DNA of 64,000 nucleotides from Maritimibacter alkaliphilus (GTDB taxonomy: Bacteria; Pseudomonadota; Alphaproteobacteria; Rhodobacterales; Rhodobacteraceae), in contig NZ_JAHVIT010000003.1 of assembly GCF_019801605.1 (NCBI RefSeq), positions 62,001 to 126,000 on the forward strand, read 5' to 3'. Each line of letters starts with the position of its first letter. The stretch's first letter is position 1. Made by a program: the position numbers and the translations under genes. The notes under the pieces were generated by a model. That model ran no database searches and had not been told where the DNA came from. It saw nothing but the letters and a program-made list of their open reading frames with translations. Positions 48,581 through 64,000 of this stretch are shown piece after piece.

Positions 48581-48605
48581 GGTCATCTCCAATAGACCCG
48601 GCCAT

Positions 48606-49152: not shown

Positions 49153-49899
49153 TCAGGCGAGGATTCTGCCCCAGCCCGGACAACTCGGCGTGAAGCCCGC
49201 GACGCGGCACGCCTCGAGGAAGGTCACGGCGATCGAGTCGACGATGGGCAGGCCCAGCTCGTCCTCCATCTCCGCCACCAGTGCCGTGGCTGGGAAGTTG
49301 GTGCAGACAACCGCGATGCAGTCGCCCCCCTTCTCGGCCGCGTCGCGCAGCAGCGCGCGCATCCGGTCGGCGGGCGTGTTGCCGATCTCGACGTTGCGGG
49401 CGATGCCGAGGTAGGCCGCCTTGGGCACGCTGTAGCCCTGCCGCTGGTACTCGGCCACGATCTGCTCCGACACGTCGGCGGTATAGGGCAGCGCAAGGGC
49501 GATGTCCTTGAAGCCGAAGCGGCGGTAGGTCTCGTAGAAGCCCAGCGTCGCGGTGGTGGCGGGCACGCCCGTTGCCTCGGTCAGCGCCTCGCAGAGCAGC
49601 TGATCCGTCTCCAGCCCACGCCAGCTGGCCGAGGTGCCGTTCCAGACCAGAGCGTTCAACGGCGCATCCGCCAGCAGCCGGGCCGCCGCCACCATGGGCG
49701 CATTCTGGAAATGCGCGTTGGAGGCCTCGTTCAGGGCCAGCGTCTGCACCTCCGTCCGGCTGAAATGCTGCGAGACGCGATCCGCCACCGGCATGTTCAT
49801 CGCGTAGGTCAGCGGCTCGGCCCAGGTGTTCGAGGAGGGCATGATATGGCCCACGCGCAGCAGCGTGGCAGGATCGGGATAGGGATAGGGAAGCGTCAT
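49153..49899 (-). CDS. Asp/Glu racemase superfamily protein, arylmalonate decarboxylase-like
   Basis: A 248-residue protein of the maleate isomerase/Asp-Glu racemase superfamily. The first catalytic loop reads ALVWNGTSASWRG, with Gly88-Thr89-Ser90 where racemases and maleate isomerases have a cysteine. The second loop AVVCTNFPATAL keeps Cys199. Gly plus one Cys, with the GTSxSxxRG pattern and a Tyr in TLGFYETY, is the arrangement of arylmalonate decarboxylase. It is the last gene of the HpaB-type operon, 18 bases after the flavin reductase. Decarboxylation of a malonate-like intermediate is inferred; annotation as maleate isomerase would be a weaker choice. Confidence 0.8.
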   Translation of the reverse strand: MTLPYPYPDPATLLRVGHIMPSSNTWAEPLTYAMNMPVADRVSQHFSRTEVQTLALNEASNAHFQNAPMVAAARLLADAPLNALVWNGTSASWRGLETDQLLCEALTEATGVPATTATLGFYETYRRFGFKDIALALPYTADVSEQIVAEYQRQGYSVPKAAYLGIARNVEIGNTPADRMRALLRDAAEKGGDCIAVVCTNFPATALVAEMEDELGLPIVDSIAVTFLEACRVAGFTPSCPGWGRILA

Positions 49900-49917
49900 G
49901 GGGGGCTCTCTGGCTGG

Positions 49918-50442
49918 TCAGGCGCCGGGTTCGGGCTGACAGAGGGCGGGGGCACCGTCGGCCATGCCGCCCGCGTAGAAGAGAAGCGGTGCGCCGGGCC
50001 GCTGGGTGAGCGCCTCGACCTCGCCGATGAAGATCAGGTGATCGCCCGCCGTCACGATCTGGTCCGTCCGGCAGGTGAGCTGCGCAAGGGCACCGGGGAT
50101 CAGCGGCAGCTGCGCCGCATCCCCCGCGATGGCCCGGGCCGGACCTTCGAGGGCGAGGCCATGGAACGGATCGTCGTGACCGCGCGCGAAGTGGCGGGCG
50201 AGGTGCTCCTGCTCCGCCGCCAGCACGTTGACGGCGAAACGCCCGGCCCGTTCGAAGACGGCCCGGGCGCGGGAGCGCAGGCGCAACGACCAGAGCACCA
50301 GCGGCGGCTCCACCGAGACGGAAGAGAAGCTGTTCGCGGTCAGCCCCGCGCGGGTGGTCCCGTCGGTGGTGGTGATGATCGTCACGCCGGTGGCAAAGCG
50401 CGAACAGGCGGTGCGGAACTCCTTCGGGGCGATCGCGCTCAT
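49918..50442 (-). CDS. Flavin reductase of a two-component monooxygenase (HpaC-like)
   Basis: A 174-residue flavin reductase-like protein that would supply reduced FAD or FMN to the HpaB-like oxygenase of the same operon. The signature is FATGVTIITTTDGTTRAGLTANSFSSVSVEPPLVLWSL, followed by FAVNVLAAEQEHLARHFA and the His/flavin block HLIFIGEVEAL. The ATG overlaps the amidohydrolase stop (ATGA). Confidence 0.9.
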   Translation of the reverse strand: MSAIAPKEFRTACSRFATGVTIITTTDGTTRAGLTANSFSSVSVEPPLVLWSLRLRSRARAVFERAGRFAVNVLAAEQEHLARHFARGHDDPFHGLALEGPARAIAGDAAQLPLIPGALAQLTCRTDQIVTAGDHLIFIGEVEALTQRPGAPLLFYAGGMADGAPALCQPEPGA

Positions 50443-51917
50443 CGCGGCCCCTCCCCCACCATGCGGGTAAAGCCGAGGTCGGGCTGGTCGCGCCCCTCCA
50501 CATGGGCCACGATCAGCGGCTCCATCCGGGCAGAGAGCGCCCGGGCCTCGGCAGTGGCCGCATGCCACGCGGGCAGCTTGTCCTCGATCCGGGCGCGCAG
50601 GTCGGCCATGTCGATCGTCGTCAGCCGGCCCTCGCGCATCACCACGCGGCCCGCCGCGATCACGTCGGTCACAGAGGCGCCGTTCTCGGCCGTCACCAGC
50701 TGCGCCACCGGGTCGGTCAGCGGTAGGAAGTTCACCGAGCCGAGGTCGAGCAGAACGAGGTCCGCATCCTCTCCGGCGGCGATCCGGCCCGCGTTGGTCA
50801 GGCCCAGCACATCGGCCCCGCCCTCGGTGCCCAGCCGGAAGGCCTCGGCACAGGAGAGCCAGTCGGCACGTGGCGTACCCCAGACCCGCGAGGCGTCGGA
50901 GGCAAGGCGCATCGCCTCGAACATGTTGAGCGCGTCGGAGGAGTTGGCCCCGTCCGTCGCCAGCCCCACCCGCATCTCGCGGTCCAGCATCTGCCCCAGC
51001 GGCGCGATGCCGGTGCCCAGCCGGAAATTCGAGGCCGGGATATGGGCCACCGCCGCCCCGGCCCCAGCCAGCCGGTCGAGGTCATCGCCGTCGAGCCAGA
51101 TGGCATGGGCCGCCACGAAGGACGGCCCCAACACGCCGAGGTCGTCGAGATACGCAATGGGCGAGACGCCGTAGACCTGCCGCGCGACCTCGGCCTGAAA
51201 GCGCGATTCCGCGATATGCATGTGCAGCGGGATGTCATGGCCCGCCGCAAGCTCGGCGCAGCCGGTGATCAGCCGGTCGGAACACTGGTGCGGGATCGTG
51301 GGCGCCACGGCACAGGAAATCCCCCCCGGCAGGGGCTCGGCGAATAGCGCCTTCAGCCGGGCCAACATGTCCTCGGCCTGCGGCGGCGGGCCGGTGAGTT
51401 CGGCCTGAAGGTCGGCAGGCAGCGCCTGCATCAGGCCGGGAATGGACTCGACGAAGCTGCGGTCGGCCACCATGGGCGCCAGCACCGCGCGCATGCCCGC
51501 ATCGGCATAGGCCCGCGCCACGGCCGCCAGATGCGCGGGCTCCAGCCCCGGCAGCAGGTAGACGAGGTCGAAACAGGCGGTGCAGCCCTTCGACAGCATG
51601 TCCGCCGCGCCGAGCAGCGTGGAGAGATAGACCGTCTCCTCGTCCCGCGCGCCGCCCATCCACGGGCCGTTCGTCAGCGAGGCCTCCAGCGTCCAGCGGT
51701 CCGCCGCGCCCTTGGCGAGGTTGGCATGGCCGTGGGTGTGGCTGTTCACGAGGCCGGGCATGACGATCCGGTCGCTGGCATCGATCACCTGCGCCTCGGG
51801 CGCGTCGATATCGGGGGCCACCCGCAGGATGCGGCCATGGGCGATCAGGATGTCGGCACGGCGCGGGGCCTCGCCCGCCGTGCAGACCAGCCCGCCCCGG
51901 ACAAGAAGCGCGCTCAT
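50439..51917 (-). CDS. Amidohydrolase/deaminase, Atz/Trz family
   Basis: A 492-residue metal-dependent hydrolase of the cytosine deaminase/AtzA-TrzN class. Metal ligands are visible: His60 and His62 in MPGLVNSHTHGHANL, the third His in PLHMHIAESR, then FVAAHAIWLD and the catalytic Asp in VGLATDGANSSDALNMFEAMRLA. Relatives remove amino, chloro or thiomethyl groups from purines, pyrimidines and triazines. In this operon it probably deaminates or opens a nitrogen ring. It overlaps both neighbours by four bases. Confidence 0.9.
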   Translation of the reverse strand: MSALLVRGGLVCTAGEAPRRADILIAHGRILRVAPDIDAPEAQVIDASDRIVMPGLVNSHTHGHANLAKGAADRWTLEASLTNGPWMGGARDEETVYLSTLLGAADMLSKGCTACFDLVYLLPGLEPAHLAAVARAYADAGMRAVLAPMVADRSFVESIPGLMQALPADLQAELTGPPPQAEDMLARLKALFAEPLPGGISCAVAPTIPHQCSDRLITGCAELAAGHDIPLHMHIAESRFQAEVARQVYGVSPIAYLDDLGVLGPSFVAAHAIWLDGDDLDRLAGAGAAVAHIPASNFRLGTGIAPLGQMLDREMRVGLATDGANSSDALNMFEAMRLASDASRVWGTPRADWLSCAEAFRLGTEGGADVLGLTNAGRIAAGEDADLVLLDLGSVNFLPLTDPVAQLVTAENGASVTDVIAAGRVVMREGRLTTIDMADLRARIEDKLPAWHAATAEARALSARMEPLIVAHVEGRDQPDLGFTRMVGEGPR

Positions 51918-52828
51918 GGCGCGCCCTCCGGCGGGTGATGCGCGGCCCAGTGGCGGGCGACCTCCCCGCGCGAGGCGAACCAGACGTCCTCGTGCGAGAG
52001 CGCGTGGTCGAGGAACCGCCGGATCGCGTCGAAGCGCGCGGGCTGGCCGCTGATCCGGTTGTGCAGGCTGATCGTCATCAGGCGCGGGATGCGTGCGCTT
52101 TCCGCGTGCAGCACCCGGAAGGCGGCCGAGAGGTGGTCGAGGAAATCCTCCGCCGTGCCCAGCTTGCCGGACGGCAGGCGGTTGTCGTTGAGCGTGAAGG
52201 TATGGGGCACCACCAGCCGGTCCGTGCCGTCGCAGTCCACCCAGTAGGGCAGATCGTCGGCATAGCTGTCCGCATCGTAGAGGATCGAGGGATGCCCCAT
52301 CAGCAGGCGGCGGGTGTGGATCGAGGGGGCATAGCGGCTCTGCCAGCCGGAAGGCGCGCGGCCCATGATCTCCGTCAGCCCGTCAATGGCACGGGCGATG
52401 GTGGCGGCCTCCTCGGCCTCCTCCATCAGGAAGTGACGGGCGAACCGGTCGCCGTGGCAGCAGATGTCATAGCCCGCCTCGGCGATGGCCTCCGCCGCCT
52501 CCGGGTTGCGGCGCATGGCCTGCGCACAGAGCCCCATGGTCGGCGGCACGCCGGTCTCGCGGAACATCTCGTAGAGCCGCCAGAACCCCACGCGGGAGCC
52601 GTATTCGAAGAGGCTTTCCGCCACGAGGTCGCGGGTGCCGGCGGGCACCTCGCCGGGGATGCCATCGGTCAGGGCCAGCTCGGTGGCCGGGTCGCCGTCG
52701 GGGATCGAGGGCTCTGCCCCCTCCTCGAAGTTCACCACCACCACCAGCGCCAGTTTCTTAGCCCCGGGCCAATGGGTCACCGGCGGGTGCTGCCCGTAGC
52801 CCGCGAAGTCGCGCACGGGCCCGCTCAT
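51914..52828 (-). CDS. PuuE-type polysaccharide deacetylase family hydrolase
   Basis: A 304-residue NodB-fold protein of the PuuE branch, which includes a cofactor-independent allantoinase. The family opening LVVVVNFEEGAEPSIPDGDP, GFWRLYEMFRETGVPPTMGL, GYDICCHGDRFARHF (His125) and PSGWQSRYAPSIHTRRLL are seen. It probably hydrolyses a cyclic amide rather than a polysaccharide, given the neighbouring amidase and amidohydrolase and the lack of a signal peptide. Overlaps of four bases join it to both. Confidence 0.85.
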   Translation of the reverse strand: MSGPVRDFAGYGQHPPVTHWPGAKKLALVVVVNFEEGAEPSIPDGDPATELALTDGIPGEVPAGTRDLVAESLFEYGSRVGFWRLYEMFRETGVPPTMGLCAQAMRRNPEAAEAIAEAGYDICCHGDRFARHFLMEEAEEAATIARAIDGLTEIMGRAPSGWQSRYAPSIHTRRLLMGHPSILYDADSYADDLPYWVDCDGTDRLVVPHTFTLNDNRLPSGKLGTAEDFLDHLSAAFRVLHAESARIPRLMTISLHNRISGQPARFDAIRRFLDHALSHEDVWFASRGEVARHWAAHHPPEGAP

Positions 52829-54000
52829 GCGGCGAGGCCCTCGGCCCAATGTGCTGCCATGGCCAGCAGGCGTTCGTCCCCGCGCGGCCCGGCGATGAAG
52901 CTGAGGCCCACGGGCACGCCCTCCACCGTGGTGGCGGGCAGGTTCAGCTGCGGCAGGCGGCAGAGGCTGGCGACGCAGGTCAGGGCCAGCGTCTTCTCGC
53001 GGAACTCGATCAGCGCCTCCAGCGGGGCCTGCCGCACCGGGGGCAGGTCATGGGCGGTGGGGATCATGATCACGCCATCCTCGCCCAGTAGGTCGGTCAG
53101 GTAGGCGGTCAGCGCCTCGCGCTGCGGGATCGCGGCGGCGATCGCCTCGGCGGGGATGGATTTCGCCAGCGCCATGCGCTCGGCGATGCTTTCGCTCACC
53201 CGGCGGCCCGGCACCTCGGACCAGTCGCCAAGGGTCGCCCAGAGGTCGCCCAGTTGCAGCGGTCGGAAGGTCGCCAGCCAGTGCTGGATGCCCTGTTGGT
53301 AGAGCGTCACCTCCGCCTCGGGCCCCAGTGCGCGCGCCTTGGGCAGCAGGGCCGCGCCAATGTCGGCGCGGGGAATGTCGAAGGCATCGCGCGCCAGCAG
53401 CAGACGGGTGCCCGTCGCCTCGGCGATCTCTCCGAAATAGGCGGTGCCCACGCGTTTGAGCACCTCTGCGTCGCGAGCGAACCAGCCCACGGTGTCGAAG
53501 CTGGGCGCCATGGCCATGACGCCCGCCGTACTGATCCGGCCATGGGTCGTGCGCAGGCCCATGACCCCGCAGAAGCTGGCCGGCACGCGCACCGACCCGC
53601 CCGTGTCGGAGCCCAGCGCGAAATCGCACAGCCCCGCCGCAACCGCCGAGACGGAGCCCGAGGAGGAGCCCCCGGGCACCCGGTCGGGCGCGGCTGGGTT
53701 CACGGGCGTGCCGAAGAATTCATTGGTGCCGAACATGCCGCAGGCGACCTCGTCGGTGTGGGTCTTGCCGATGCACTCTGCCCCCTGCGCCAGCATGGCG
53801 AGGACCGAGGGCGCGGTGGCCACCGCGGGCGTGCCCTCCAGCCGGTCGGGATTGCCGCAGGCGGTAACGGTGCCCGCGATGTCGAAGAGATCCTTCACCG
53901 CGAAGCTGAGGTCAGAGAGGGTCCCGCTCTGCGTCATGCGGAAGGGCGCGGGCCCATGGTCGACGAAGGCCTGCTGGCGGATGTGGTCGATGTCCTTCAT
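52825..54000 (-). CDS. Amidase signature family enzyme
   Basis: A 391-residue amidase. The Ser-cisSer-Lys triad is visible: Lys36 in LSFAVKDLFD, the GGSSSGS loop at 110-116 and the nucleophile Ser136 in LGSDTGGSVRVPASFCG. It is shorter than GatA-type members, close to indoleacetamide/AtzF-like small amidases. It lies four bases after the HpaB-like gene and overlaps the PuuE-like gene, so it probably hydrolyses a linear amide formed after ring opening. Confidence 0.92.
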   Translation of the reverse strand: MKDIDHIRQQAFVDHGPAPFRMTQSGTLSDLSFAVKDLFDIAGTVTACGNPDRLEGTPAVATAPSVLAMLAQGAECIGKTHTDEVACGMFGTNEFFGTPVNPAAPDRVPGGSSSGSVSAVAAGLCDFALGSDTGGSVRVPASFCGVMGLRTTHGRISTAGVMAMAPSFDTVGWFARDAEVLKRVGTAYFGEIAEATGTRLLLARDAFDIPRADIGAALLPKARALGPEAEVTLYQQGIQHWLATFRPLQLGDLWATLGDWSEVPGRRVSESIAERMALAKSIPAEAIAAAIPQREALTAYLTDLLGEDGVIMIPTAHDLPPVRQAPLEALIEFREKTLALTCVASLCRLPQLNLPATTVEGVPVGLSFIAGPRGDERLLAMAAHWAEGLAA

Positions 54001-54004
54001 GGCC

Positions 54005-55486
54005 TCACTCCGCCGCGGAACTCAGGGCATTCTCGCCCGGCAGCCCATAGGTGCCCATGAAGCCGTCGACGAAATCCTTCACCTCGCCCCAGTCGAAGAA
54101 GCGGTAGGAATTGCCCCGGGTCACGAAGGTCGCGCCGGAATAGAACATTTCGTACTGCAGATGGCGCGAGCCGAATTCGGAGCCGACCGCGTCCCAGGCC
54201 AGTTTCATCAGCTTCACCCGCTCCTCGCTGTTGGCGATGGGGGAACGCTGGGTCTTGCCGATGATCGCCGCCGTCTCGGGGTTCTCGAAGTCGGCATAGG
54301 ACGACGGCACCATGATCATGCCCCCGCCCGAGAGCACGCGGATCTGCTCCACCACCTCCGGGTAGGTCGTCTGGGCGATCACCTGCGCGGTGCACAGGAT
54401 CGACCGGTCGGGCACGTAATAGCCGTTGTAGTGCTCGCCCTGCGCCTCCATGGCGATGATCAGCGCGTCGATGTTGGAGACCTTGGCCGCCAGATGCCCC
54501 ATCGTCTCGCGCACCTGCGGGAAGTTGATGATGTTGTTCAGTTCCGCGATCTTGCGCGCAAGGCCGAGGAGGAACTTCAGCTTCACCTTGAGGCGGATCA
54601 TGCACTGGTAGTTCTGCATGACGTGGGCGCGGGTGTCATGCCACTGCGCCTGCGCCATCTTCAGGTCCTTGTGCACGAAGACCCGGTCCCACGGCACCTT
54701 CACATCGTCGAAATGCACCACCGCGTCATTCTCGTCGAAGCGTGAGGACAGCGGGTAGTCGAAGGTCGATGTCGCCTCGGCCTCGTAGGAGCGGCGGGAC
54801 AGCATGCGCAGGCCCTTGGTGCCGATCGGCAGGGCGCAGGTGAAGGCATAGGCCTCGTCCCCAGCCTGGATCGCCTGGAAGCCCGAGACCATGATCTCGT
54901 TCGCCAGCACGCCCGAGGTGGCCAGCATCTTGGCGCCGCGGATGGTGATGCCCTCGCTGTCCTCGTCCACGATGGAGGCCACGAGATGCGGATCGGCCTG
55001 TCCGCCGGCGGTCTTGTTCTTGTCCGCCTGCGGATTGATGATCACGTAGGACAGGAAGTGATCGTTGTCGCGGATGTAGTCGAAGTAGCTTTCCAGCGCG
55101 CCTGCCCGCTTCGGATCGTTCTCCCTGTAGACGTTCAGCCCCATGCGGAAGCCCACGAAGGTCGAGGCGACGTGATCGGGCGAGCGGCCCAGCATGCCGC
55201 AGGTCTGGGCAGACCAGAGCTCGATGGACTTGCGCCGCTCGACCAGCTCCGCATGGCTGCGCGGCAGCATCCACGACTTGTTCACCCGCTCGCCGGTCTT
55301 GGGCGAGGCAAAGGTCATCGCCTCGATATTCTCGGGCGCGGCCTGGTAGTCGTAGAGCTGCGCGGCCGAGGCGCAGGCATTGCGGAAGGCGGGCGAGGTG
55401 GTGACGTCCTCCACCTTCTTCCCGTCGATGAAGATGCTCCGCCCGTCGCGCAGCGAGGCAAGGTGGGACGCGCCGTCCTTCGTCAT
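54005..55486 (-). CDS. 4-hydroxyphenylacetate 3-monooxygenase (HpaB) family oxygenase
   Basis: A 493-residue reduced-flavin-dependent monooxygenase, the large component of a two-component system. HpaB-family blocks include YDYQAAPENIEAMTFASPKTGERV, RSPDHVASTFVGFRMG, FLSYVIINPQADKNKTAG, VHFDDVKVPWDRVFVH and HYNGYYVPDRSILCTAQV. Members hydroxylate phenols, and others attack N-heterocycles such as pyrrole-2-carboxylate or pyridine derivatives. With amide hydrolases downstream, a heterocycle is favoured over 4-hydroxyphenylacetate. It is the first gene of the operon; GGAG lies nine bases before the ATG. Confidence 0.93.
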   Translation of the reverse strand: MTKDGASHLASLRDGRSIFIDGKKVEDVTTSPAFRNACASAAQLYDYQAAPENIEAMTFASPKTGERVNKSWMLPRSHAELVERRKSIELWSAQTCGMLGRSPDHVASTFVGFRMGLNVYRENDPKRAGALESYFDYIRDNDHFLSYVIINPQADKNKTAGGQADPHLVASIVDEDSEGITIRGAKMLATSGVLANEIMVSGFQAIQAGDEAYAFTCALPIGTKGLRMLSRRSYEAEATSTFDYPLSSRFDENDAVVHFDDVKVPWDRVFVHKDLKMAQAQWHDTRAHVMQNYQCMIRLKVKLKFLLGLARKIAELNNIINFPQVRETMGHLAAKVSNIDALIIAMEAQGEHYNGYYVPDRSILCTAQVIAQTTYPEVVEQIRVLSGGGMIMVPSSYADFENPETAAIIGKTQRSPIANSEERVKLMKLAWDAVGSEFGSRHLQYEMFYSGATFVTRGNSYRFFDWGEVKDFVDGFMGTYGLPGENALSSAAE

Positions 55487-55687: not shown

Positions 55688-55720
55688 GAAAAAGGCGCCG
55701 CCCAAGGAATGGGCAGCGCC
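55688..55720 (-). terminator. Intrinsic terminator of the asparaginase operon
   Basis: Read leftward, GGCGC-T-GCCCA pairs with TGGGC-G-GCGCC (one mismatch, loop of five or six) and is followed by TTTTT. It lies 29 bases beyond the asparaginase stop and upstream of the HpaB-like gene, so it separates the two leftward operons. Confidence 0.85.
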
Positions 55721-55748
55721 TGTTGTGACGTCAAACGGCGGCGCGGCC

Positions 55749-56738
55749 TTACTGGTAGGCGCCGATGGCCTGTTCGATCTCGATCTTCGTGGCGCCGCGG
55801 CCCAGCAGCGCCGAGAGCAGCAGCCGCGTCTTCACGCCCGACAGGGCGCCCGCGAGGATCGCCCCGTTCTTGACGAAGGTCACGGCGCCGCCGTCCTCGC
55901 CATAGATCGCGCCGGTCTGGCCTTCGGCGCAGCGCGAGCAGATCAGCACGGGCACGCCCTTCTCGGTCAGACGCTTGACGGCCGCGCCCCAGCCCCGCGG
56001 GCCATTGCCGCGACCGAAGGCGTCGATCACCACGCCCCGGGTGCCGCGTTCCGCGAACCAGTCGAGGATGTCGGGCGTCATGCCGAGCGCGAGGCGCACG
56101 TAATCCACGCGCTCCTCCGGCTGCTGGTCGGCGGCCAGTGCCACCCGGTGACGATGGGCGGGCTTGCGGTAGATGTGCACGCGGCCCTGATCCACCTCGC
56201 CCAGCTTGCCGAGGCCCGGCGAGCGGAAGGTATCGGTGCGCGAGGCGTGGACCTTGGTCACCGTGGCGGCGGCGTGGATGTCGCCCTCGAAGAGGATCAC
56301 CGCCCCCAGCCCCATGGCGCGCTCGCTGGCGGCCACCCGCAGGGCGTCGGCGATGTTGCGCGGCCCGTCGGTGTCGGGATCGCCCGCGTGGCGCTGCGCC
56401 CCCGTGAAGACCACCGGCTTTTCGCCCCCCACCAGCGTCTCGGCGAGGAAGACGCTTTCCTCCATCGTGTCGGTGCCATGGGTGACGATCACCCCGTGCA
56501 CCTCCGAGCGTCCGACCGCCTCCGAGATCGCGCGGCAGATCGCGGTCACGTCGGGGATCGTCAGCGCGCCGGAGCCGACGGAGGGGAAGTTCACCAGCTC
56601 CACCTCGATGCCCTCGGGGCGTTCGTGCAGCATCTCCATCAGGGCGGCGCCGTCCATCGCCGCGGACACGGGACCGCCGGGGGATTGGGCCTTGCTGGCG
56701 ATGGTGCCGCCGGTCGAAATCCAGACCACGCGTTTCAT
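55749..56738 (-). CDS. Asparaginase family protein
   Basis: A 329-residue type I/II L-asparaginase-fold enzyme that would release ammonia from asparagine or a similar amide. The two catalytic threonine blocks are VVWISTGGTIASK and GVIVTHGTDTMEESVF, and VFTGAQR completes the site. There is no signal peptide, so it is cytoplasmic. It is the last gene of the ABC-CobW operon, overlapping cobW-like by four bases and ending at a terminator. The operon context suggests the true substrate may be a pathway intermediate. Confidence 0.92.
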   Translation of the reverse strand: MKRVVWISTGGTIASKAQSPGGPVSAAMDGAALMEMLHERPEGIEVELVNFPSVGSGALTIPDVTAICRAISEAVGRSEVHGVIVTHGTDTMEESVFLAETLVGGEKPVVFTGAQRHAGDPDTDGPRNIADALRVAASERAMGLGAVILFEGDIHAAATVTKVHASRTDTFRSPGLGKLGEVDQGRVHIYRKPAHRHRVALAADQQPEERVDYVRLALGMTPDILDWFAERGTRGVVIDAFGRGNGPRGWGAAVKRLTEKGVPVLICSRCAEGQTGAIYGEDGGAVTFVKNGAILAGALSGVKTRLLLSALLGRGATKIEIEQAIGAYQ

Positions 56739-57694
56739 GATGTCGTCTCCTGTCTTTGGCCGATCTTCTGGAACAGATCGAAGGATCGGCGCAAGAGGGA
56801 AGGCTCGATCCCCTCCATGATGAAAACAAGGCGCGAACGGCGGTCCTGATCGGGCCAGTCTGTCATGTGGTGCGGCGGGTGGACCAGCCGCTGTACCCCG
56901 TGGATGGCGACCGGGCGCTCTTCGCCCTTCAGGTTCAGGATACCCTTCACCCGCAGGATGCGGTCCCCGTGCCGATTGAGCAAGAGGGTCAGCCAGACAC
57001 CGAAGGCGGTCCAGTCGATCTCCTCCTCGAAGACCATGGTGGTGGAGGTCAAGCCCGCGCCATGGTCATGGTGCGTCTCCAGCGGCGGCACCTGCCGGCC
57101 CTCGCGGGCGGCCAACGCGATCTCGGCCACCGGATCGGTGCGGGCATCCAGCATCCGGGCCGTGGGGTTCAGCGCGGCCAGTTGCAGCGGCAGGCCGGGC
57201 GCGGGGGCGAGGTCCGTCTTGGTCAGCGCCAGCACATCCGCCGCCGCGATCTGGCGCAGCGCCTCGCGCCGGGTGGCGCCCGAAAGCATGGCAGGCGCGT
57301 TCACCGCGTCCACGGTGGTGATGACGCCCCCGGCCCGGACCTGGCTCTGCAGCACCGGATGGGCGCGCAGGGTCGAGAGCACGGGCCAGGGGTCCGCCAG
57401 CCCCGTCGTCTCGATCACGATCCGGTCGAAGGCGGCCCGCCCCTGCCCCCGCAGCGCGATCAGGTCGAGGATGGATTGCGCCACCTCGCCCCGCACCGTG
57501 CAGCAGATGCAGCCGGACTTCATCAGCATCACGGTCTCGTCGATCCGCTCCAGCAGGTGATGATCCAGCGCCACCTCGCCGTATTCGTTGATCAGCACGG
57601 CGGTGCCCGCCATGGCGGGATCGCCCAGCATCCGCTGCAACAGCGTCGTCTTGCCGGAGCCGAGGAAACCGGTCAGCAGGGTGACGGGGATCAT
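56735..57694 (-). CDS. CobW/COG0523 family GTPase (putative metallochaperone)
   Basis: A 319-residue G3E GTPase. Walker A is LLTGFLGSGKTTLLQ (residues 9-17 core), the metal-binding CxCC motif is SGCICCTVRGE (61-65), IVIETTGLADP follows and the nucleotide base motif is ALTKTDL. A His-rich stretch ETHHDHGAG and a CobW C-terminal domain (TLLLNRHGDRILRVKGILNLKG) are present. Family members insert zinc, cobalt or iron into partner enzymes. The adjacent deacetylase-fold hydrolase and Cys-rich protein are candidate clients. Confidence 0.92.
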   Translation of the reverse strand: MIPVTLLTGFLGSGKTTLLQRMLGDPAMAGTAVLINEYGEVALDHHLLERIDETVMLMKSGCICCTVRGEVAQSILDLIALRGQGRAAFDRIVIETTGLADPWPVLSTLRAHPVLQSQVRAGGVITTVDAVNAPAMLSGATRREALRQIAAADVLALTKTDLAPAPGLPLQLAALNPTARMLDARTDPVAEIALAAREGRQVPPLETHHDHGAGLTSTTMVFEEEIDWTAFGVWLTLLLNRHGDRILRVKGILNLKGEERPVAIHGVQRLVHPPHHMTDWPDQDRRSRLVFIMEGIEPSLLRRSFDLFQKIGQRQETTS

Positions 57695-57701
57695 CGGAAG
57701 A

Positions 57702-58022
57702 TCAGCCTTCGAGGCGGTCGAGATAGGCGGGATCGAGCGGGTCTATCTCGCGCCCGGCCAGCGCCTCCGCCTCGGCCCAGAGGTGATTGAGCCCCTCGAA
57801 GATCGCCGTCTTGCCGGTGGGCCCGCGCAGCACGTAGGAGCGTTTCTGCCAGTCCCCGAAGGTGATCCTCAAAGGCGCCAGCGCCCGGTTCACGACCCGC
57901 GCGCGGGCGGCGGCCTCGGCCCGGTGGGCCTGTGGCGAGGTCAGGCGCGAATAGACGCCCTCCCGCGCCACGGCGGCCGTCCAGTGGTCGTCACAGCCGA
58001 GGATGCCGCAGAGCGCGCACAT
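57702..58022 (-). CDS. Small Cys-rich protein next to the CobW GTPase
   Basis: A 106-residue protein opening [14 protein letters not shown], with Cys2, Cys5, Cys10 and His13 as a possible metal knuckle at the extreme N-terminus. The rest is basic then acidic, with WQKRSYVLRGPTGKTAIFEGLNHLW as its clearest segment, which resembles a nucleic-acid or partner-binding module only loosely. The ATG shares one base with the preceding stop (TGATG). I do not recognise a characterised family. Its place between a metal hydrolase and a metallochaperone GTPase suggests a role in metal transfer. Confidence 0.75.
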   Translation of the reverse strand: MCALCGILGCDDHWTAAVAREGVYSRLTSPQAHRAEAAARARVVNRALAPLRITFGDWQKRSYVLRGPTGKTAIFEGLNHLWAEAEALAGREIDPLDPAYLDRLEG

Positions 58023-58903
58023 CAGGCCTTCCGCGGACAGCGCTTGGCGAAATCGTCGGCCATCTCTTCCATGGTGACGAAGCGCACGCCCTCGTGGCTC
58101 TTGATGTGCTTGATCAGCCGTTCCAGCATCATCAGCACCTGCGGCCGCCCCGCGACATCCGGGTGGATGGTGATCGGGAAGACGGCATAATCCATCTCGC
58201 GGTAGACCCAGTCGAACTGGTCGGTCCAGAGCTGCTCGATATCGCGCGGATTGACGAAGCCGTGGCTGTTGGGCGAGCCCTTGATGAACATCATCGGCGG
58301 CAGGTCGTCGAGGTACCACGAGGCCGGGATCTCGATCAGGTCGGTCTCCTCGCCGCGCTCCAGCGGTTTCATCCAGGTTTCGGGCTGCGCGGTGTAGTCG
58401 ATCTTGGTCCATTTGTCGCCGACCCGCACGTAGTAGGGCGTGTGGTCGTCATGCATCAGCGAGTGGTCGTACTTGATGCCCTTCTTCAGCAGCAGTTCGT
58501 TGGTGACGTTCGAGAACTCCCACCATGGCGCAACGTAGCCGCGCGGCGACTTGCCCGAGACCTCGGTGATTAGGGCGATGCACTTGTCGAGGACGGCCTC
58601 TTCCTGCTCGGGCGTCATGGCGATCGGGTTCTCGTGGCTGTAGCCATGCATCCCGATCTCGTGGCCCGCGGCGACCACGGCGGCGGTCTGCTCCGGGAAG
58701 GTCTCGACCGAATGGCCGGGGATGAACCAGGTGGTCTTGATCCCCTCGCGCTCGAAGAGCTTCAGCAGGCGCGGCACGCCCACCTCACCGGCAAAGAGCC
58801 CGCGCGAGATGTCGTCCGGGCTGTCCTCGCCGCCGTAGGAGCCGAGCCAGCCCGCCACCGCGTCGACGTCGACGCCGAACCCTACCAGTATCTCCTTCGC
58901 CAT
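58022..58903 (-). CDS. Polysaccharide deacetylase-fold hydrolase
   Basis: A 293-residue NodB-fold enzyme without signal peptide. The metal site is visible as Asp12/Asp14 in [15 protein letters not shown] and His86/His90 in [23 protein letters not shown] is the acidic-aromatic wall and [14 protein letters not shown] carries the C-terminal His. This HpPgdA-like branch commonly sits beside ABC importers and hydantoinase-type genes, where it acts on small amides. GGGGAG precedes the ATG. The client substrate is unknown. Confidence 0.88.
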
Positions 58904-58934: not shown

Positions 58935-59909
58935 TCAGGTGTCAGCCATATCCGTGTCGAAGAGGTCCGCCGCGCTGAAGGCGCCCTCGATCAGCCCGTC
59001 CTCACGCGTGTAGCGGATGATCGTGTCCAGCGTGTCGCGGTTCCGGGCCAGCCCGGTGGACCAGTAATCCTTGCCCAGCTTGCGCTCGGTCATGGTCAGA
59101 TGCTCCAGCGCCCAGGGCAGCATGACGCTGAGCGCGGCACTGTCATAGAGCCGCGCACGGGCCTCCTCCTGCGCCTTGGTGAAGGCATCGAAGAGCGCGC
59201 GGGTCAGGCCTGCGTTGGCCTCGGCGATCTCGCGTTTCACGCAGAGCACATGCATCGGGGGATAGATGCCCGTCATCTCGTAATAGGCCATGTCGGCAGA
59301 CATGGGATCGTCGAAGAGCCGGGTCACGCTGCCCCCCTCGACATAGGTCGAGGGCGCGCGGGCGGTGTAGAGCGCGTCGATCTCGCCCCGCGCCAGCATC
59401 CCGGCCAGGCCGCCCTCGGCATGGGAATGCTCGATCTGGAAGCCTTCGGGATAGAACTGCGGATGTTCGTCCCCGGTGCGGGCCTCTTCCAGCCCGTTGG
59501 TGACATAGATCGGCGCTGTGCGCGGCAAGTCGTAGTAATCTTGGAACATCCCGCGCAGCCAGACGGCGGCGGCCATGTCCCAGACGGGGATGCCGATGCG
59601 CTTGCCCGCGAGGTCCGCAGGCTTGGTGATCCCGGCATCGCGGTGGGTGAAGACGCAGGACAGGCGGAAATGGCGCGAGGGGAAGACCGGCACGGCGAGA
59701 TAGCGCCGCGCTCCTTCCATGTCGCGCAGGTAGGTGCCCAGCGGGAATTCGCAGGCGTCGTATGCGTGGTCCGACAGCTGCTTGTTGAAGAGCGCCTGCA
59801 CCCCGTGGACGTTCCACGTGGCCTCGACCCCCTCGATGGGCACGGTGCCATCCACGAGAGGGCCCATGCGGTCGCTTTCACTGACGCCGAAGGTGAGTTT
59901 GATCGTCAT
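58935..59909 (-). CDS. 4,5-dihydroxyphthalate decarboxylase-like / ABC binding-protein-fold protein
   Basis: A 324-residue protein with a type 2 periplasmic-binding fold but no signal peptide. [68 protein letters not shown] and [15 protein letters not shown] match the family annotated as 4,5-dihydroxyphthalate decarboxylase. It could be an enzyme decarboxylating a cyclic acid or a lipoprotein-free binding protein; the cytoplasmic location favours an enzyme. AGGGAA precedes the ATG; the ABC permease gene ends nine bases upstream. Confidence 0.82.
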
Positions 59910-59918
59910 GTCATTCCC

Positions 59919-60689
59919 TTAGTTCGAGAAGCCCGAGCGGTGGGCCCAGCCGGTCATCCGCTTCTCGATCCAGGCCATCACGAGGTACATCGCGATGCCC
60001 ATGAACCCGAGGACGAAGAGACCGGCAAAGATCAGCGGCACCTGGAACTGTGCCTGCGCCATCATCATGAACTTGCCGATACCATGGTTCGAGGCGACGC
60101 TTTCCGACAGGACCGATCCCACGAAGGCCAGCGTGATGGCGATCTTCAGCGAGCCGAAGAAATAGGGCAGCGCGCGCGGGATGCCGACCTTGCGCATGAT
60201 GTCCAGCTTGGAGGCGCCCAGCGCCTTGAGCACGTCTTCCAGCTCGCTCTCGATGGTGGCGAGGCCGGTGGCCACGTTCACCACGATCGGGAAGAAGGAG
60301 ATCAGGAAGGCCGTCAGTGCCGCCGGCACCGCGCCGATGCCGAACCACAGCACGAGGATCGGCACCACCGCGACCTTGGGGATGGCGTTGAAGGCCACCA
60401 TCAGCGGATAAAGCCCGGCATAGATCGTGGCCGAGTAGCCCACCAGCAGCCCCAGCGCGAGGCCGAAGACCACCGCGAGGCCGAAGCCCACCATCGTGGT
60501 GACCAGCGTGTAGGTGCTCTCGCGCAGGATCGCGGGCCAGTATTCCACGATGGCCGCGAAGATGGTCGACGGCTTTGGCAGCAGGTAGCCGGGGATGTTG
60601 AAGACGATGACGGTGAGTTCCCAGAGCGCCAGCACGATGATCAGCGAGGCAATGGGCGAGATGCGGAGAAAGAGGCTCTGTCGGTTCAT
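59919..60689 (-). CDS. ABC transporter permease (SsuC/TauC/ThiX class)
   Basis: A 256-residue inner-membrane permease with about six helices. Typical blocks are LLPKPSTIFAAIVEYWPAILRESTYTLVTTMVGFGLAVVFG, the coupling motif LEDVLKALGASKLDIMRKVGIPRALPYFFGSLKIA and ASNHGIGKFMM. It forms one importer with the ATPase gene it overlaps by four bases and with the NMT1-type binding protein upstream. Confidence 0.93.
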   Translation of the reverse strand: MNRQSLFLRISPIASLIIVLALWELTVIVFNIPGYLLPKPSTIFAAIVEYWPAILRESTYTLVTTMVGFGLAVVFGLALGLLVGYSATIYAGLYPLMVAFNAIPKVAVVPILVLWFGIGAVPAALTAFLISFFPIVVNVATGLATIESELEDVLKALGASKLDIMRKVGIPRALPYFFGSLKIAITLAFVGSVLSESVASNHGIGKFMMMAQAQFQVPLIFAGLFVLGFMGIAMYLVMAWIEKRMTGWAHRSGFSN

Positions 60690-61465
60690 TTGCGCGCCGT
60701 CACGATATGTTCGCGCAGCTCGTGCACGAGGGACTGGAACTCTGCCGTGTAGGTCAGTTCGAGGTCGCGCGGGCGCTCCAGCTCGATCCGCCGCTCGGCG
60801 AGGATGCGGCCGGGACGGGCCGACATGGCAAAGACGCGGTCGGCGAGAAAGACCGCCTCGCGCAGGTCATGGGTGACGAGGATCACGGTCACGCCGGTCT
60901 CGGCATGAAGGTCGCGGATCACGCACCACAGTTCCTCGCGGGTGAAGGCATCAAGCGCGCCGAAGGGTTCGTCCAGCATCAGCAGCTTGGGCTGGTGGAT
61001 CAGCGCGCGGCACAAGGCGGCGCGCATCTGCATCCCGCCCGACAGTTCCCACGGATGCTTGTCGCCCGCACCCTTCAGGCCCACCCGCTCCAGCAGGGCC
61101 TCGGCCCGCTCGCGGTATTCCTTCTTCTTGGCGCGGAACTGCTGCCGGTGCGGGGGCACGATTTCCAGCGGCAGAAGGATATTCTCGATCGTTGTGCGCC
61201 ACGGCAGCAGGTTCGGCGCCTGGAACGCCATACCCGCCATGCGCACTGGTTTCGTCACGCGCTCGCCTGCCACGGTGATCGTGCCGGCGCGGGGGAACTG
61301 AAGCCCGGTGGTCAGTTTCATGAAGGTGGACTTGCCACAGCCCGAAGGCCCCACGACGGCGGCGAACTCCCCTTCGCCGATGGAGACATGCAGGTCCTGG
61401 ACCGCCAGCGGCCCCTCGGCGCCATAGCCGTGATCCACACCGTCGAATTCGATAAATGGTTGCAC
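60686..61465 (-). CDS. ABC transporter ATPase (SsuB/TauB/ThiZ class)
   Basis: A 259-residue nitrate/sulfonate/pyrimidine-class ABC ATPase. Walker A is VVGPSGCGKSTFMKL, the Q-loop MAFQAPNLLPW, signature LSGGMQMRAALCRAL, Walker B LLMLDEPFGALDAFT and the H-loop VTHDLREAV. GTG 61465 was chosen because AGAGGGGG lies about six bases before it; an ATG 11 codons further upstream sits against a strong hairpin and has no ribosome site. Confidence 0.94.
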   Translation of the reverse strand: MQPFIEFDGVDHGYGAEGPLAVQDLHVSIGEGEFAAVVGPSGCGKSTFMKLTTGLQFPRAGTITVAGERVTKPVRMAGMAFQAPNLLPWRTTIENILLPLEIVPPHRQQFRAKKKEYRERAEALLERVGLKGAGDKHPWELSGGMQMRAALCRALIHQPKLLMLDEPFGALDAFTREELWCVIRDLHAETGVTVILVTHDLREAVFLADRVFAMSARPGRILAERRIELERPRDLELTYTAEFQSLVHELREHIVTARK

Positions 61466-61499
61466 CCTGTCCCCCTCTAGTCGGTGCCGGTCTTGCATC

Positions 61500-61548: not shown

Positions 61549-62586
61549 TTATTCGACGGCCAGGTCCTCGTCCGAGGGCAGGAAGGAGCTGTCGAAGATC
61601 GCTGCCGCCTCCGGGGTGGCCTGGAAGTCGTAGGTCAGGCCCAGCTGTTCGATGGAATGCGTCAGGCGGTCCATGTCGACCTTGCCAAAGCCGTTGGCCT
61701 TCACTTCATCGGTGACGATGTTGTTTTCCAGCGCATAGGTCAGGCGCTCCAGTTCCATGTCCTTCTTGGCGACCGGGTTGCGCGACAGCACGGATTCGAG
61801 CGAGGCCTCGGGATCGGCCACCACGTCCTTCAGACCCTTGGTGAAGGCGCGCAGGAAGCCCTTCACCGCGTCCGGGTTCTCCTCGGCAAAGGCCGGGGTG
61901 ACCATGATGGTGTTGCCGTAGAGATCGACACCGTAGTCCGACATCAAGAAGACGCTCACGTCCTCGGGGTCTTCCACGTTGCGGCGCACCGAGAGGTAGG
62001 TCGAGAAGGCGAAGCCGGTGATCGCGTCCACCTGGCCCGAGACCAGCATCGGCTCACGCACCGGGAAGCCGACGTTCTCGATGGTGACCTTGGAGGCGTC
62101 GATGTCGTTCTCGGCCACGAAGATCGGCCACTGGGCATAGGCCCCGTCCGGGGCGGGTGCGCCCAGCGTCTTGCCCTCGAGGTCCTTGGGCGTGGTCACG
62201 CCAAGGCTCTTGCGACCCACCACCGAGAAGGGCGGGTTGTTGTAGAGCATGTAGACCGCCTTGATCGGGGTCGCCGGGTTGGCATCGAGGAACTTGATCA
62301 GCGAGTTGATGTCGCCGAAGGCCATGTCATAGGTGCCCGAGGCCAGACGGTTCAGCGGCTCGACCGAGCCAGCGCCGGTGTCGATGGTGACGTCGAGGCC
62401 CTCTTCCTTGAAGTAGCCCTTGTCCAGTGCGACGAGGAAGGGCGCGGCAGGTCCTTCGAAGTTCCAGTCCAGCGAGAACTTGATCGGCGTCTGGGCCGAG
62501 GCCATTCCGGCACTCAGGGCAAGCCCAAGGCCAACCGCCGCACCGGCAGCGGTGCGAACGGCGCGGGAAAGGCGCGAAATCATCAT
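61549..62586 (-). CDS. ABC transporter substrate-binding protein, NMT1/THI5-like
   Basis: A 345-residue periplasmic protein. The signal peptide MMISRLSRAVRTAAGAAVGL (ending ASA before QTPIKF) precedes FSLDWNFEGPAAPFLVALDKGYFKEEGLDV, the opening typical of the ThiY/SsuA/TauA class, then YDMAFGDINSLIKFL and DLEGKTLGAPAPDGAYAQW. Such proteins bind sulfonates, nitrate, pyrimidines or other small ring compounds. ATG 62586 has GGAG nine bases upstream; an ATG five codons earlier is also possible. It leads the importer genes. Confidence 0.92.
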   Translation of the reverse strand: MMISRLSRAVRTAAGAAVGLGLALSAGMASAQTPIKFSLDWNFEGPAAPFLVALDKGYFKEEGLDVTIDTGAGSVEPLNRLASGTYDMAFGDINSLIKFLDANPATPIKAVYMLYNNPPFSVVGRKSLGVTTPKDLEGKTLGAPAPDGAYAQWPIFVAENDIDASKVTIENVGFPVREPMLVSGQVDAITGFAFSTYLSVRRNVEDPEDVSVFLMSDYGVDLYGNTIMVTPAFAEENPDAVKGFLRAFTKGLKDVVADPEASLESVLSRNPVAKKDMELERLTYALENNIVTDEVKANGFGKVDMDRLTHSIEQLGLTYDFQATPEAAAIFDSSFLPSDEDLAVE

Positions 62587-62653
62587 CTTGTTTGTCTCCA
62601 TGTTGTCTTTGACATCAGTCGTTTGCCGTCCGGGATTGTGCCCCCCGGTCCGG

Positions 62654-62683
62654 ATGCAGGCGAGGACATCCCCGCCCCTGCAT
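62654..62683. other. Hairpin between the binding-protein and DUF5591-like genes
   Basis: A perfect seven-base-pair outer stem (ATGCAGG/CCTGCAT) with partly paired G/C-rich inner sequence, in the gap just after the DUF5591-like stop. It could attenuate transcription into the importer genes or protect an mRNA end. Confidence 0.4.
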
Positions 62684-62686
62684 GAA

Positions 62687-63709
62687 TCAACCAGACACGC
62701 GCGAGACGAGAACGTCCAGCAATTCCGGTAGGGCAAGCGGCGTGGCATTGGCTCCGCCGCGCGAATAGACACCACCGACCTTCGACTCGTCCGTTCCCAG
62801 CCGCTCCGCCAGCCGGCGGATCGCGTCCTTGCACTGGTCGGTGGTGGGCAGCGCCTCGATCTTGAGCCCCTCGGGCAGGTGGTCGTTCGCCCCCACGAGG
62901 TCGAGCCGCGCGTCGCCCACCTTGCGATAGGCGGGCACGTTGTGGGCGCTGCGCTCCTCGCGGCCCAGCACGAAGGACCGGTGCGTCAGCCCCGGCGCGA
63001 CCCAGGCGATCCGGTCGGTGTAACAGCCGCCGATGCGCTTCAGGCTGTCGGCGAGGATCCGCGCCATTTCGTTGTGCATCAGCACATAGGCCCGCTTCTC
63101 CTCCTCGCCCCATTTCCAGCGCGTGGCCGAAACCCGCGTCGCGGTCGAATCGGCCCGCCAGGGCGCCACCGCGTTGCCGCGTTTCTCGAACAGGCCGGGA
63201 TCGTCATAGGCGGTCGCGGGCGACGGGCGATCCTCGTACTCCGCGATGTTCTCGTAGGGTACCAGCGCCATCGGCTCCGAGATCACGGCGCGGTGGATCA
63301 CCGTCCCCTTGCCGTTCGACAGGACCGAGAGGTTCAGCACGTCGCGCGGAAACGGCGGCTCCAGCCGGTCCTGCAGTTCCTCGGGCAGATAGCTCTGCCC
63401 CACCGGCGCGAAGCCTTCGGCCAGCAGGCGGCTGTTGATCGCCTGGTGCTCGGAGGAGAAGGGATAGGGCTTGGTCTTGGTGCAGGGCATCATCAGCAGC
63501 ACCCGCTTCTCGGCCTGCGGCAGCGCGGGCTCGTAACGGTGCAGGATGTAGTCGATCCACTGGGCGATGCGCGGATGTTCGAGGCTGTCGACATTGTCCT
63601 GCGGCGAGTAGAGGCACAGCGTCGGGTCGAGCTCGAAGGGCTTCTGGATCTTCTCGCGGCTCTCGGTGATCCGGGTCTCGCGGTCATCGGTGGTGACGGT
63701 GTTCAGCAT
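62687..63709 (-). CDS. Protein with an archaeosine-synthase-like PCxxxKPY motif (DUF5591-like)
   Basis: A 340-residue cytoplasmic protein. The clearest block is VLLMMPCTKTKPYPFSSEHQ (about 71-90), which resembles the PCSxxKPYSxSxSH motif of the DUF5591 domain in archaeosine synthase and tRNA-guanine transglycosylase-related proteins. Other blocks (RVSATRWKWGEEEKRAY, YTDRIAWVAPGLTHRSFVLG, GGVYSRGGANATPLALPELL) I cannot assign. It overlaps the gene upstream by seven bases and precedes an importer for a small ring compound, so handling of a purine- or deazapurine-like base is conceivable. Function is not established. Confidence 0.6.
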   Translation of the reverse strand: MLNTVTTDDRETRITESREKIQKPFELDPTLCLYSPQDNVDSLEHPRIAQWIDYILHRYEPALPQAEKRVLLMMPCTKTKPYPFSSEHQAINSRLLAEGFAPVGQSYLPEELQDRLEPPFPRDVLNLSVLSNGKGTVIHRAVISEPMALVPYENIAEYEDRPSPATAYDDPGLFEKRGNAVAPWRADSTATRVSATRWKWGEEEKRAYVLMHNEMARILADSLKRIGGCYTDRIAWVAPGLTHRSFVLGREERSAHNVPAYRKVGDARLDLVGANDHLPEGLKIEALPTTDQCKDAIRRLAERLGTDESKVGGVYSRGGANATPLALPELLDVLVSRVSG

Positions 63710-64000
63710 CTGCGGTCCTCCCCGGCCAGCGCGCGGGTCTCGCCCCGGGCCGCGGCCTCGTTCAGTTCGGGTTCATCATAGGCCTCGAGCGCGGCAAGAT
63801 GGGCCTCCGCATCCTCGAGGAACAATCGCTCGGTCAGGCCGCGCACCAGTCGCTCGGCCCCGAATTTCAGCGCCGAGATCCCGGCAGAGCCCGCCAGGCT
63901 CGGCATGGCGGCGAAGGTGTAGCAATGCACCCGGCTGACCCAGGGCGCGCTGCCCGGCACCTTCTCCTGCAGGGCGAAATCGCGGCCCAGGTAGGGGAAG
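63703..64000 (-). CDS. C-terminal part of a protein cut by the window edge, possibly an FAD-dependent oxidoreductase
   Basis: The frame is open from the window end to a TGA, giving the last 98 residues (starting FPYLGRDFALQEK). Blocks PWVSRVHCYTFAAMPSLAGSAGISALKFGAERLV and GLTERLFLEDAEAHLAALEAYDEPEL recall the C-terminal tail of NAD(P)/FAD-dependent monooxygenase-like flavoproteins, but the nucleotide-binding parts lie outside the window and the call is tentative. A GTG within this stretch should not be taken as the start. It overlaps the DUF5591-like gene by seven bases, so it belongs to the same operon. Confidence 0.55.
   Translation of the reverse strand, partial: FPYLGRDFALQEKVPGSAPWVSRVHCYTFAAMPSLAGSAGISALKFGAERLVRGLTERLFLEDAEAHLAALEAYDEPELNEAAARGETRALAGEDRRC

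Follow-up and report, generated by a model that had tools for sequence, protein, structure and literature searches.

The 64,000 nucleotides of Maritimibacter alkaliphilus DNA analysed here (contig NZ_JAHVIT010000003.1, positions 62,001 to 126,000 of the forward strand; hereafter the window) carry, at positions 49153 to 55486, six minus-strand genes for an HpaB-type oxygenase (HPAB), an amidase (AMD), a PuuE-like hydrolase (PUUE), an ATZ/TRZ-type aminohydrolase (ATZ), a flavin reductase (HPAC) and an arylmalonate-decarboxylase-like protein (ISO). These six genes are only one part of a larger, co-inherited system, which the interval cuts in the middle. Constant partners, namely an N-hydroxylase-like flavoprotein (FMO), a 4,5-dihydroxyphthalate decarboxylase homologue (DHPD) and a protein related to the archaeosine synthase ArcS (G63), are encoded upstream on the same strand. 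We read the system as one that breaks down an N-heterocycle; no description of its gene set was found in the open-access literature searched (most subscription papers lie outside that scope). Homology suggests a substrate with a fused N-heterocycle resembling guanine, and the likeliest candidate is a member of the 7-deazaguanines (queuosine, queuine, preQ1, preQ0 or archaeosine base), a reading to which a probability of roughly 40% was assigned.

Co-inheritance of the gene set

Genomes were scanned with peptide patterns derived from the HPAB of the window; of the 126 loci obtained, the best 80 were used, so that distant carriers may have been missed. Neighbourhoods were counted among the 33 rows with an HPAB of at least 62% identity, which were reduced to 25 long neighbourhoods with partners by leaving out L001–L003 (4.5-kb extracts of the window's genome and two others), four loci shorter than 10 kb (L008, L020, L021 and L024) and L027 (HPAB 63%, 14 kb, without AMD or G63). 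AMD and G63 were found in 25/25 neighbourhoods, the locus end leaving G63 partial in L007, L009 and L010. FMO was present in 24 of the 25 loci as fetched, the 25th (Parvibaculum) encoding a protein of that family at a more distant downstream position, and DHPD was present in 22 as fetched and in 24 when longer flanks were included (just past the locus end in L007 and L009; L010 not followed; partial in L012, L016 and L022). ATZ (at least 50% identity) was detected in 19/25 and PUUE (at least 54%) in 16/25 neighbourhoods, followed by ISO (10/25), HPAC (9/25), PUUE2, a second deacetylase-fold hydrolase of the upstream run (8/25), and ASN, an asparaginase-family protein (4/25).

The original prediction had treated the six genes as one enzyme set to be sought together in other genomes. 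The pairing of oxygenase and amidase held throughout, whereas HPAC and ISO proved inconstant, and the boundaries of the set were wrong in that FMO, DHPD and G63 lie outside the interval. Co-inheritance of the gene set as such is well shown, and the data also establish its division between two loci in the window's genome and the fold and motif assignments given below. The association is not due to chance because the same genes adjoin each other repeatedly in several genera. The carriers, named by their record titles, belong to the Rhodobacteraceae, Kaistia, rhizobia, Parvibaculum and the Acetobacteraceae. Pseudooceanicola nanhaiensis carries the same region at 93–100% protein identity, and in Falsiroseomonas (L029) the genes form one tight operon in the order FMO-HPAB-AMD-ATZ-DHPD-G63, four of its junctions being overlaps (7, 4, 4 and 4 bases) and the remaining one a 3-base gap. 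Mirror correlations between the core proteins ranged from 0.62 to 0.84; they were calculated without a null model and may simply mirror the phylogeny of the species.

Enzymes of the cluster and their candidate substrate

HPAB belongs to the Pfam HpaB family, and among its relatives in the PDB, monooxygenases for 4-hydroxyphenylacetate, nitrophenol and chlorophenol predominate, as would be expected if it were an ordinary phenol hydroxylase of the 4-hydroxyphenylacetate type whose neighbours are unrelated. However, it scores below both HpaB equivalog cut-offs (336.4 against 480.2 for HpaB-1 and 280.3 against 885.2), and its partners are constant. In an alignment with Thermus HpaB, Arg100 is kept, Tyr104 is replaced by His and His142 by Tyr; these three positions (Thermus numbering) are presumably the residues that bind the phenol, 4-hydroxyphenylacetate. 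The exchanges are invariant in 30/30 cluster sequences (the window's own included) and in 58/58 sequences of a related group at 54–60% identity (among which L027 was counted), hence in 88/88 in total. Because two residues of the phenol pocket are exchanged in all 88 aligned sequences, HPAB is unlikely to be a plain 4-hydroxyphenylacetate hydroxylase. On the equivalog scores and the exchanged residues a plain phenol pathway was rejected as a candidate, and we regard an ordinary phenol hydroxylase amid unrelated neighbours as highly improbable. An N-heterocycle fits better than a phenol, and the original idea of N-heterocycle breakdown is partly supported.

Relatives of HPAB at 54–60% identity (L039, L042, L044, L046 and L092, the last outside the alignment) carry the same exchanged pocket residues, and their partners (a DUF2848 protein, a cupin-like protein, an amidase and a flavin reductase) make up another uncharacterised gene set. 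Both HPAB types occur in Bradyrhizobium elkanii WSM2783, contig NZ_AXAP01000002.1 (cluster type at 74%, L017; other type at 56%, L056).

The PuuE-type and ATZ-type hydrolases of the interval have intact motifs. PUUE, which scores below the cut-off of the PuuE allantoinase equivalog TIGR03212 and matches PDB entry 3cl6 at 3e-79, keeps the PuuE pattern in its motifs NxEEG and CHGDRF, the second metal His being absent. ATZ scores best with the models PRK06038 (256 bits) and 8-oxoguanine deaminase (252 bits) but falls far short of either cut-off; its motifs HxH, HxHxxE, H and D are invariant in 20/20 sequences. ISO has an invariant Cys199 and a Gly at the first-Cys position in 9/9 sequences; its curated scores of 79.9 for EutA and 66.6 for arylmalonate decarboxylase (NF052327; cut-off 225) are both below cut-off. 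Maleate isomerases of the NicE type have two active-site cysteines. ISO, by contrast, resembles arylmalonate decarboxylase in having only one Cys of the catalytic type and lacks the first cysteine, which weakens a nicotinate-type maleamate/maleate ending as a candidate; such an ending is therefore not implied. Profile searches otherwise returned the six gene families broadly as first named, with ISO slightly closer to EutA than to arylmalonate decarboxylase.

Among the constant partners outside the interval, DHPD aligns with PDB entry 9jp7, a 4,5-dihydroxyphthalate decarboxylase, over query residues 3–319 at 1.3e-50, a match to which no curated cut-off applies. A role of DHPD as a transporter protein was rejected, as its NMT1 match is weak (24.0 bits, cut-off 20.5), the match to 9jp7 is strong and no signal peptide was recognized by eye. 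FMO exceeded the gathering scores of both Lys_Orn_oxgnase (42.8 against 21.3) and Pyr_redox_3 (52.7 against 30), and its model matched the ornithine N-hydroxylases PvdA/KtzI at Z 28.8–28.0, bacterial FMOs at 27.2–26.4 and SidA N-hydroxylases at 25.6–24.5. A second operon with an FMO paralogue and PuuE-like and ATZ-like hydrolases, together with a polar-amino-acid type ABC permease, was observed in Falsiroseomonas (L029:2120-8402); an operon of this kind lies at the same place in L030, L031 and L033.

G63 exceeds the cut-off for DUF5591 (28.6 against 26 bits, residues 48–94). Its predicted model (predicted local distance difference test score 88.6) has AF0587 (2q07) as best structural match (Z 11.1, root-mean-square deviation 2.3, 136 aligned residues), and the next matches, DNA-glycosylase rows at Z of about 5, score too low to support a conclusion. 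Foldseek alone returned nothing usable (best E 0.16), AF0587 emerging only in the second structural comparison. Within the phylum sample, DUF5591 was found in 1/199 genomes (the window's own), with 3 archaea among the 14 control genomes giving a match, and the G63 family occurred in 3/386 class genomes and 1/397 phylum-sample genomes, the window's genome included each time.

A further set of genes accompanies the cluster. In Kaistia soli, DHPD is followed on the same strand by genes for an AraC regulator, a class-III aminotransferase, a histone-deacetylase-family protein, an aldehyde dehydrogenase, an 8-oxoguanine deaminase, an ABC transporter with its SsuA-like binding protein, a VOC protein, an OYE protein, an AKR protein, a nucleoside hydrolase and an ECF S component. 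Of these 13 Kaistia genes, 10 lie together in the window's own genome at a second locus (L119), which is separated from the cluster by about 165 kb of the same contig; identities are 53–78% (AraC, deaminase, aminotransferase, aldehyde dehydrogenase, ABC, permease, VOC, binding protein, OYE and AKR). No histone-deacetylase-family protein, nucleoside hydrolase or S component of at least 45% identity was detected at L119. Parts of the set also adjoin the cluster in Parvibaculum (L108), Ciceribacter (L110), the Rhizobium plasmid pRACO34Ac (L091), Actibacterium (L011) and P. marinus (L015). The predicted 8-oxoguanine deaminase exceeds the cut-off of 532 for equivalog PRK08203 with scores of 606, 616 and 613, the last of these (612.7) belonging to the gene at L119. 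Its subtype, at 74–100% identity to the Kaistia soli query, was present in 14/14 carriers outside the Acetobacteraceae and in the window's genome, Kaistia soli itself being one of the 14 and the 74% line having been drawn after the data were seen. Among 191 class genomes, identities of at least 74% were found only in the window's genome, with five others at 56–63%, and some carriers have further copies at 58–71%. The AKR gene was considered as a broken gene because of two reported stops; these lie at the C-terminal end, and the gene is intact.

Transport genes vary between carriers. A BMP-type transporter accompanies the cluster in Bradyrhizobium and a nucleoside hydrolase plus ECF S component in Kaistia; S components stand beside the cluster in Kaistia (L010:6836-7408) and, by record title, Mesorhizobium sp. 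BR1-1-16 (L106:15903-16508). The S components are nearest to the CD3073 model, below its cut-off, and one of them adjoins a nucleoside hydrolase, a hint that the ligand may be a nucleoside or nucleobase.

Taken together, the two aminohydrolases of the ATZ/guanine-deaminase kind, the allantoinase-like enzyme and the ArcS-related protein, as well as the nucleoside hydrolase, ECF S component or BMP-type transporter of some genera, argue for a nucleobase-like substrate. Breakdown of an N-heterocycle, as originally proposed, is favoured by the HPAB pocket, the intact PUUE and ATZ motifs, the 8-oxoguanine-deaminase partner and G63, and the bounds of the enzyme set had to be given up. A 7-deazaguanine is preferred because its amine side chain would suit FMO, the aminotransferase and the aldehyde dehydrogenase, a nitrile or amidine would suit G63, a ring carboxyl DHPD, an electron-rich five-membered ring HPAB, an 8-oxoguanine-like intermediate the deaminase and a four-carbon imide PUUE2.

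Following this preferred reading, the base or nucleoside would be brought in by ABC importers, one of them with an NMT1-type binding protein. The C7 side chain would then be trimmed, with FMO attacking the side-chain amine, the class-III aminotransferase and aldehyde dehydrogenase of the second locus converting the aminomethyl group to a carboxyl, and G63 together with the amidase handling nitrile, amidine or amide forms. DHPD would take off the ring carboxyl, HPAB and a flavin reductase would hydroxylate the five-membered ring, and the 8-oxoguanine-deaminase homologue and/or ATZ would remove the exocyclic amino group. Finally, PUUE would open the cyclic ureide, amidases would free nitrogen, and the imidase-type PUUE2, where present, could open the remaining cyclic imide to give a C4 half-amide. 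A complete aerobic pathway, in which queuosine or another 7-deazaguanine serves as nitrogen and carbon source, is proposed more tentatively; here, FMO, an enzyme derived from ArcS, an aminotransferase and a dehydrogenase would remove the C7 side chain, the decarboxylase would yield 7-deazaguanine, HPAB would make the 8-oxo form for the 8-oxoguanine-type deaminase, and the allantoinase-, amidase- and imidase-type hydrolases would dismantle the ring.

Several observations weigh against a 7-deazaguanine as substrate. Every tie of an enzyme to this group of compounds is one of homology. G63 falls far short of both ArcS equivalogs, scoring 26.7 (cut-off 440) and 25.5 (cut-off 600), and its DUF5591 match covers only 47 residues. 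ArcS of T. kodakarensis is inactive on the free preQ0 base according to PMC11298593, which favours a nucleoside as substrate or a changed activity; the authors of PMC6884629 considered an amidohydrolase reaction by some phage ArcS possible. The FMO model scores N-hydroxylase and FMO folds close together, with SidA N-hydroxylases under the bacterial FMOs. The 63% HPAB of L027 stands without any other core gene within its 14 kb, and 5 of 11 Acetobacteraceae carriers lack both PUUE and ATZ at an identity of at least 50%. None of the 11 (assigned by record titles) has the deaminase subtype at the post hoc line of 74%, one having a copy at 62%. The nucleoside hydrolase is not conserved in the window's genome (best matches 32–36%), and the ECF S components are nearest to the CD3073 model at scores below its cut-off (128 and 125 against 180) and are not named as QrtT. 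No Rfam match at gathering score, to a preQ1 or other riboswitch, was obtained in six loci. Finally, OYE, imidase and amidase together also recall a pyridine route.

The last point leads to the degradation of a pyridine of the hydroxynicotinate, pyridoxal or pyridoxate type, similar to the hxn pathway of Aspergillus, in which OYE would partly saturate a hydroxypyridine, PUUE2 would open the cyclic imide and the amidase would finish the route. The HP0310 protein of H. pylori (3qbu), called a peptidoglycan deacetylase, is the best PDB match of PUUE2, whose residues D12, D14, H86 and H90 are invariant in 9/9 sequences; this match suggests that HP0310 may fall into the same group of small-molecule hydrolases. 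In PMC9304392, 3qbu is described as related to cyclic imidases, and HxnM of A. nidulans as a cyclic imidase structurally similar to it. The extended gene set includes OYE and AKR, the latter annotated in one record as pyridoxal 4-dehydrogenase. However, AKR reaches only 89.5 against a cut-off of 550 with its best curated model, PUUE2 occurs in only 8/25 neighbourhoods, and a pyridine route would give neither DUF5591 nor the two aminohydrolases of the ATZ/guanine-deaminase kind anything to do. We consider this substrate class unlikely.

We likewise consider it unlikely that the compound degraded is another 2-amino-4-oxo fused pyrimidine, for example a pterin (such as pterin-6-carboxylate or isoxanthopterin) or an oxidised purine. 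Here the deaminases would take the 2-amino group and DHPD a ring carboxyl, while HPAB would hydroxylate and PUUE would open the ring. The 8-oxoguanine-deaminase equivalog together with ATZ and the joint occurrence of DHPD and HPAB in one operon (L029) are consistent with this possibility, as is a very weak match of the folate-family ECF model to the S component (21.3 bits against 60). It leaves unexplained, however, the ArcS-related G63 and the amine N-hydroxylase-like FMO with its aminotransferase and aldehyde dehydrogenase. Pyrrole-2-carboxylate was also considered as a substrate; no matching gene set was noted in the portion of the literature searched.

In the window's genome, no match to TIGR00364, which we take to be QueC, was found (control positive in 10 of 14 known genomes), and TGT is present, a combination expected of an organism that salvages queuosine precursors and counted in favour of the preferred reading; for these two reasons the genome would have to import queuosine precursors. 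Together with the transporters in the cluster and DUF5591, this would also suit salvage or remodelling of a modified base for tRNA (e.g. queuine to preQ1) instead of its degradation. Such a role would, however, not need ring-opening type hydrolases, a decarboxylase homologue or two oxygenases, and is judged improbable.

No breakdown route for 7-deazaguanine was found in the sections of the open-access literature covered, in which DUF2848, DUF5591 and CD3073 likewise received no mention; a figure legend in PMC11130926 speaks of "possible degradation and phosphorylation pathways" around queuosine, drawn with dashed arrows. If the preferred substrate is correct, the cluster would represent a sink for a micronutrient so far studied for its synthesis and salvage, and the catalytic domain of ArcS would have a second job outside archaeal tRNA. 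If another N-heterocycle is used, the cluster would still be a catabolic system not yet characterised, for which five core genes provide a clear marker.

Gene layout of the region

All six open frames of the interval were confirmed on the minus strand, in the order HPAB-AMD-PUUE-ATZ-HPAC-ISO (Table 1). The claim that nearly all of them are coupled by 4-base overlaps holds for three of the five junctions, as HPAB and AMD are separated by a 4-base gap and HPAC and ISO by an 18-base gap. The upstream run comprises ten minus-strand genes (FMO, G63, a three-gene NMT1-type ABC transporter, DHPD, PUUE2, SMALL, COBW and ASN) and is followed by a terminator-like hairpin, the stem of which has 12 pairs and is the longest of the 10 found, against an average of 5.0 found in shuffles. 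Since this hairpin sits between ASN and HPAB, the region was treated as two adjoining gene runs. A simple scan revealed no promoter-like site.

Table 1. Positions of the genes and the hairpin in the window
Name	Description	Positions	Strand	Evidence
ISO	arylmalonate-decarboxylase-like, single-Cys member of the Asp/Glu racemase superfamily	49153..49899	-	Amdase 74.8 bits, cut-off 25.9
HPAC	flavin reductase	49918..50442	-	Flavin_Reduct 133.6 bits
ATZ	ATZ/TRZ-type aminohydrolase (deaminase superfamily)	50439..51917	-	Pfam Amidohydro_1
PUUE	PuuE-allantoinase-like hydrolase without second metal His	51914..52828	-	TIGR03212 301.8 bits, cut-off 424.6
AMD	amidase-signature amidase, PRK08310 type	52825..54000	-	PRK08310 438.2 bits, cut-off 391
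HPAB	HpaB-type oxygenase of two-component flavin monooxygenase, own subfamily	54005..55486	-	Pfam HpaB_N + HpaB
Hairpin	terminator-like, with T-run, between upstream run and HPAB	55693..55721	-	
ASN	asparaginase-family amidohydrolase	55749..56738	-	Asparaginase 179.8 bits
COBW	CobW-family GTPase	56735..57694	-	cobW 140.6 bits
SMALL	106-residue protein, starts MCALCG, between PUUE2 and COBW	57702..58022	-	
PUUE2	metal-type polysaccharide-deacetylase-fold hydrolase, near cyclic-imidase group	58022..58903	-	PDB 3qbu 1.1e-156
DHPD	4,5-dihydroxyphthalate decarboxylase homologue	58935..59909	-	PDB 9jp7 1.3e-50
PERM	ABC permease	59919..60689	-	BPD_transp_1 94.9 bits
ABC	ABC ATPase	60686..61498	-	ABC_tran 102.6 bits
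SBP1	NMT1/THI5-type substrate-binding protein	61549..62775	-	NMT1 151 bits
G63	DUF5591 protein related to ArcS core domain, motif PCTxTKPYxxSxEH	62687..63709	-	DUF5591 28.6 bits
FMO	3' part of N-hydroxylase-like flavoprotein gene	63703..64000	-	gene runs to about 65157, beyond window (L086:1703-3157)

The start codon of SBP1 is uncertain, its longest frame overlapping the end of G63. SMALL matched no family in profile searches and has weak relatives in L007 and L016, that of Kaistia dalseonensis (L007) starting with MCGFCG; given its place next to PUUE2 and COBW, it may help to load metal into PUUE2. Just downstream of ISO, a gene of the PLP (pyridoxal phosphate)-dependent ornithine/diaminopimelate-decarboxylase type lies on the same strand (47411–48625) and was listed, among the 85 loci compared, only in P. 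nanhaiensis (L006).

Comparison with known systems

The cluster resembles the HpaBC/TftD two-component flavin monooxygenases in its Pfam HpaB_N and HpaB domains and in the flavin reductase that adjoins in 9/25 neighbourhoods; it differs in that HPAB lies under the HpaB equivalog cut-offs and has His and Tyr at the positions of Tyr104 and His142. With purine catabolism (8-oxoguanine/urate, allantoin) it shares the 8-oxoguanine-deaminase equivalog of the extended set and the PuuE-type motifs of PUUE, whereas PUUE reaches 302 bits against a cut-off of 425 and the system adds oxygenases and a ring decarboxylase homologue. For the nicotinate pathway of A. nidulans (hxn), each of four roles has a candidate here, namely those of cyclic imidase, amidase, alkene reductase and monooxygenase, while the route as described in the available excerpt of PMC9304392 includes no aminohydrolase, decarboxylase homologue or DUF5591. 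QueK-QrtT-QueL, the queuosine salvage system of Clostridioides difficile (PMC11477304), has a counterpart in the nucleoside hydrolase and ECF S component of the Kaistia cluster; the Kaistia S component is, however, nearest to CD3073 and the hydrolase nearest to RihA, both below cut-off. The likeness to ArcS, finally, lies in the DUF5591 match of G63 above gathering score, the motif PCTxxKPYxxSxxH shared with AF0587 and a fold that matches AF0587 best, in contrast to which G63 is a stand-alone bacterial protein of 340 residues that scores far below the ArcS equivalogs and is encoded in a catabolic-looking cluster.

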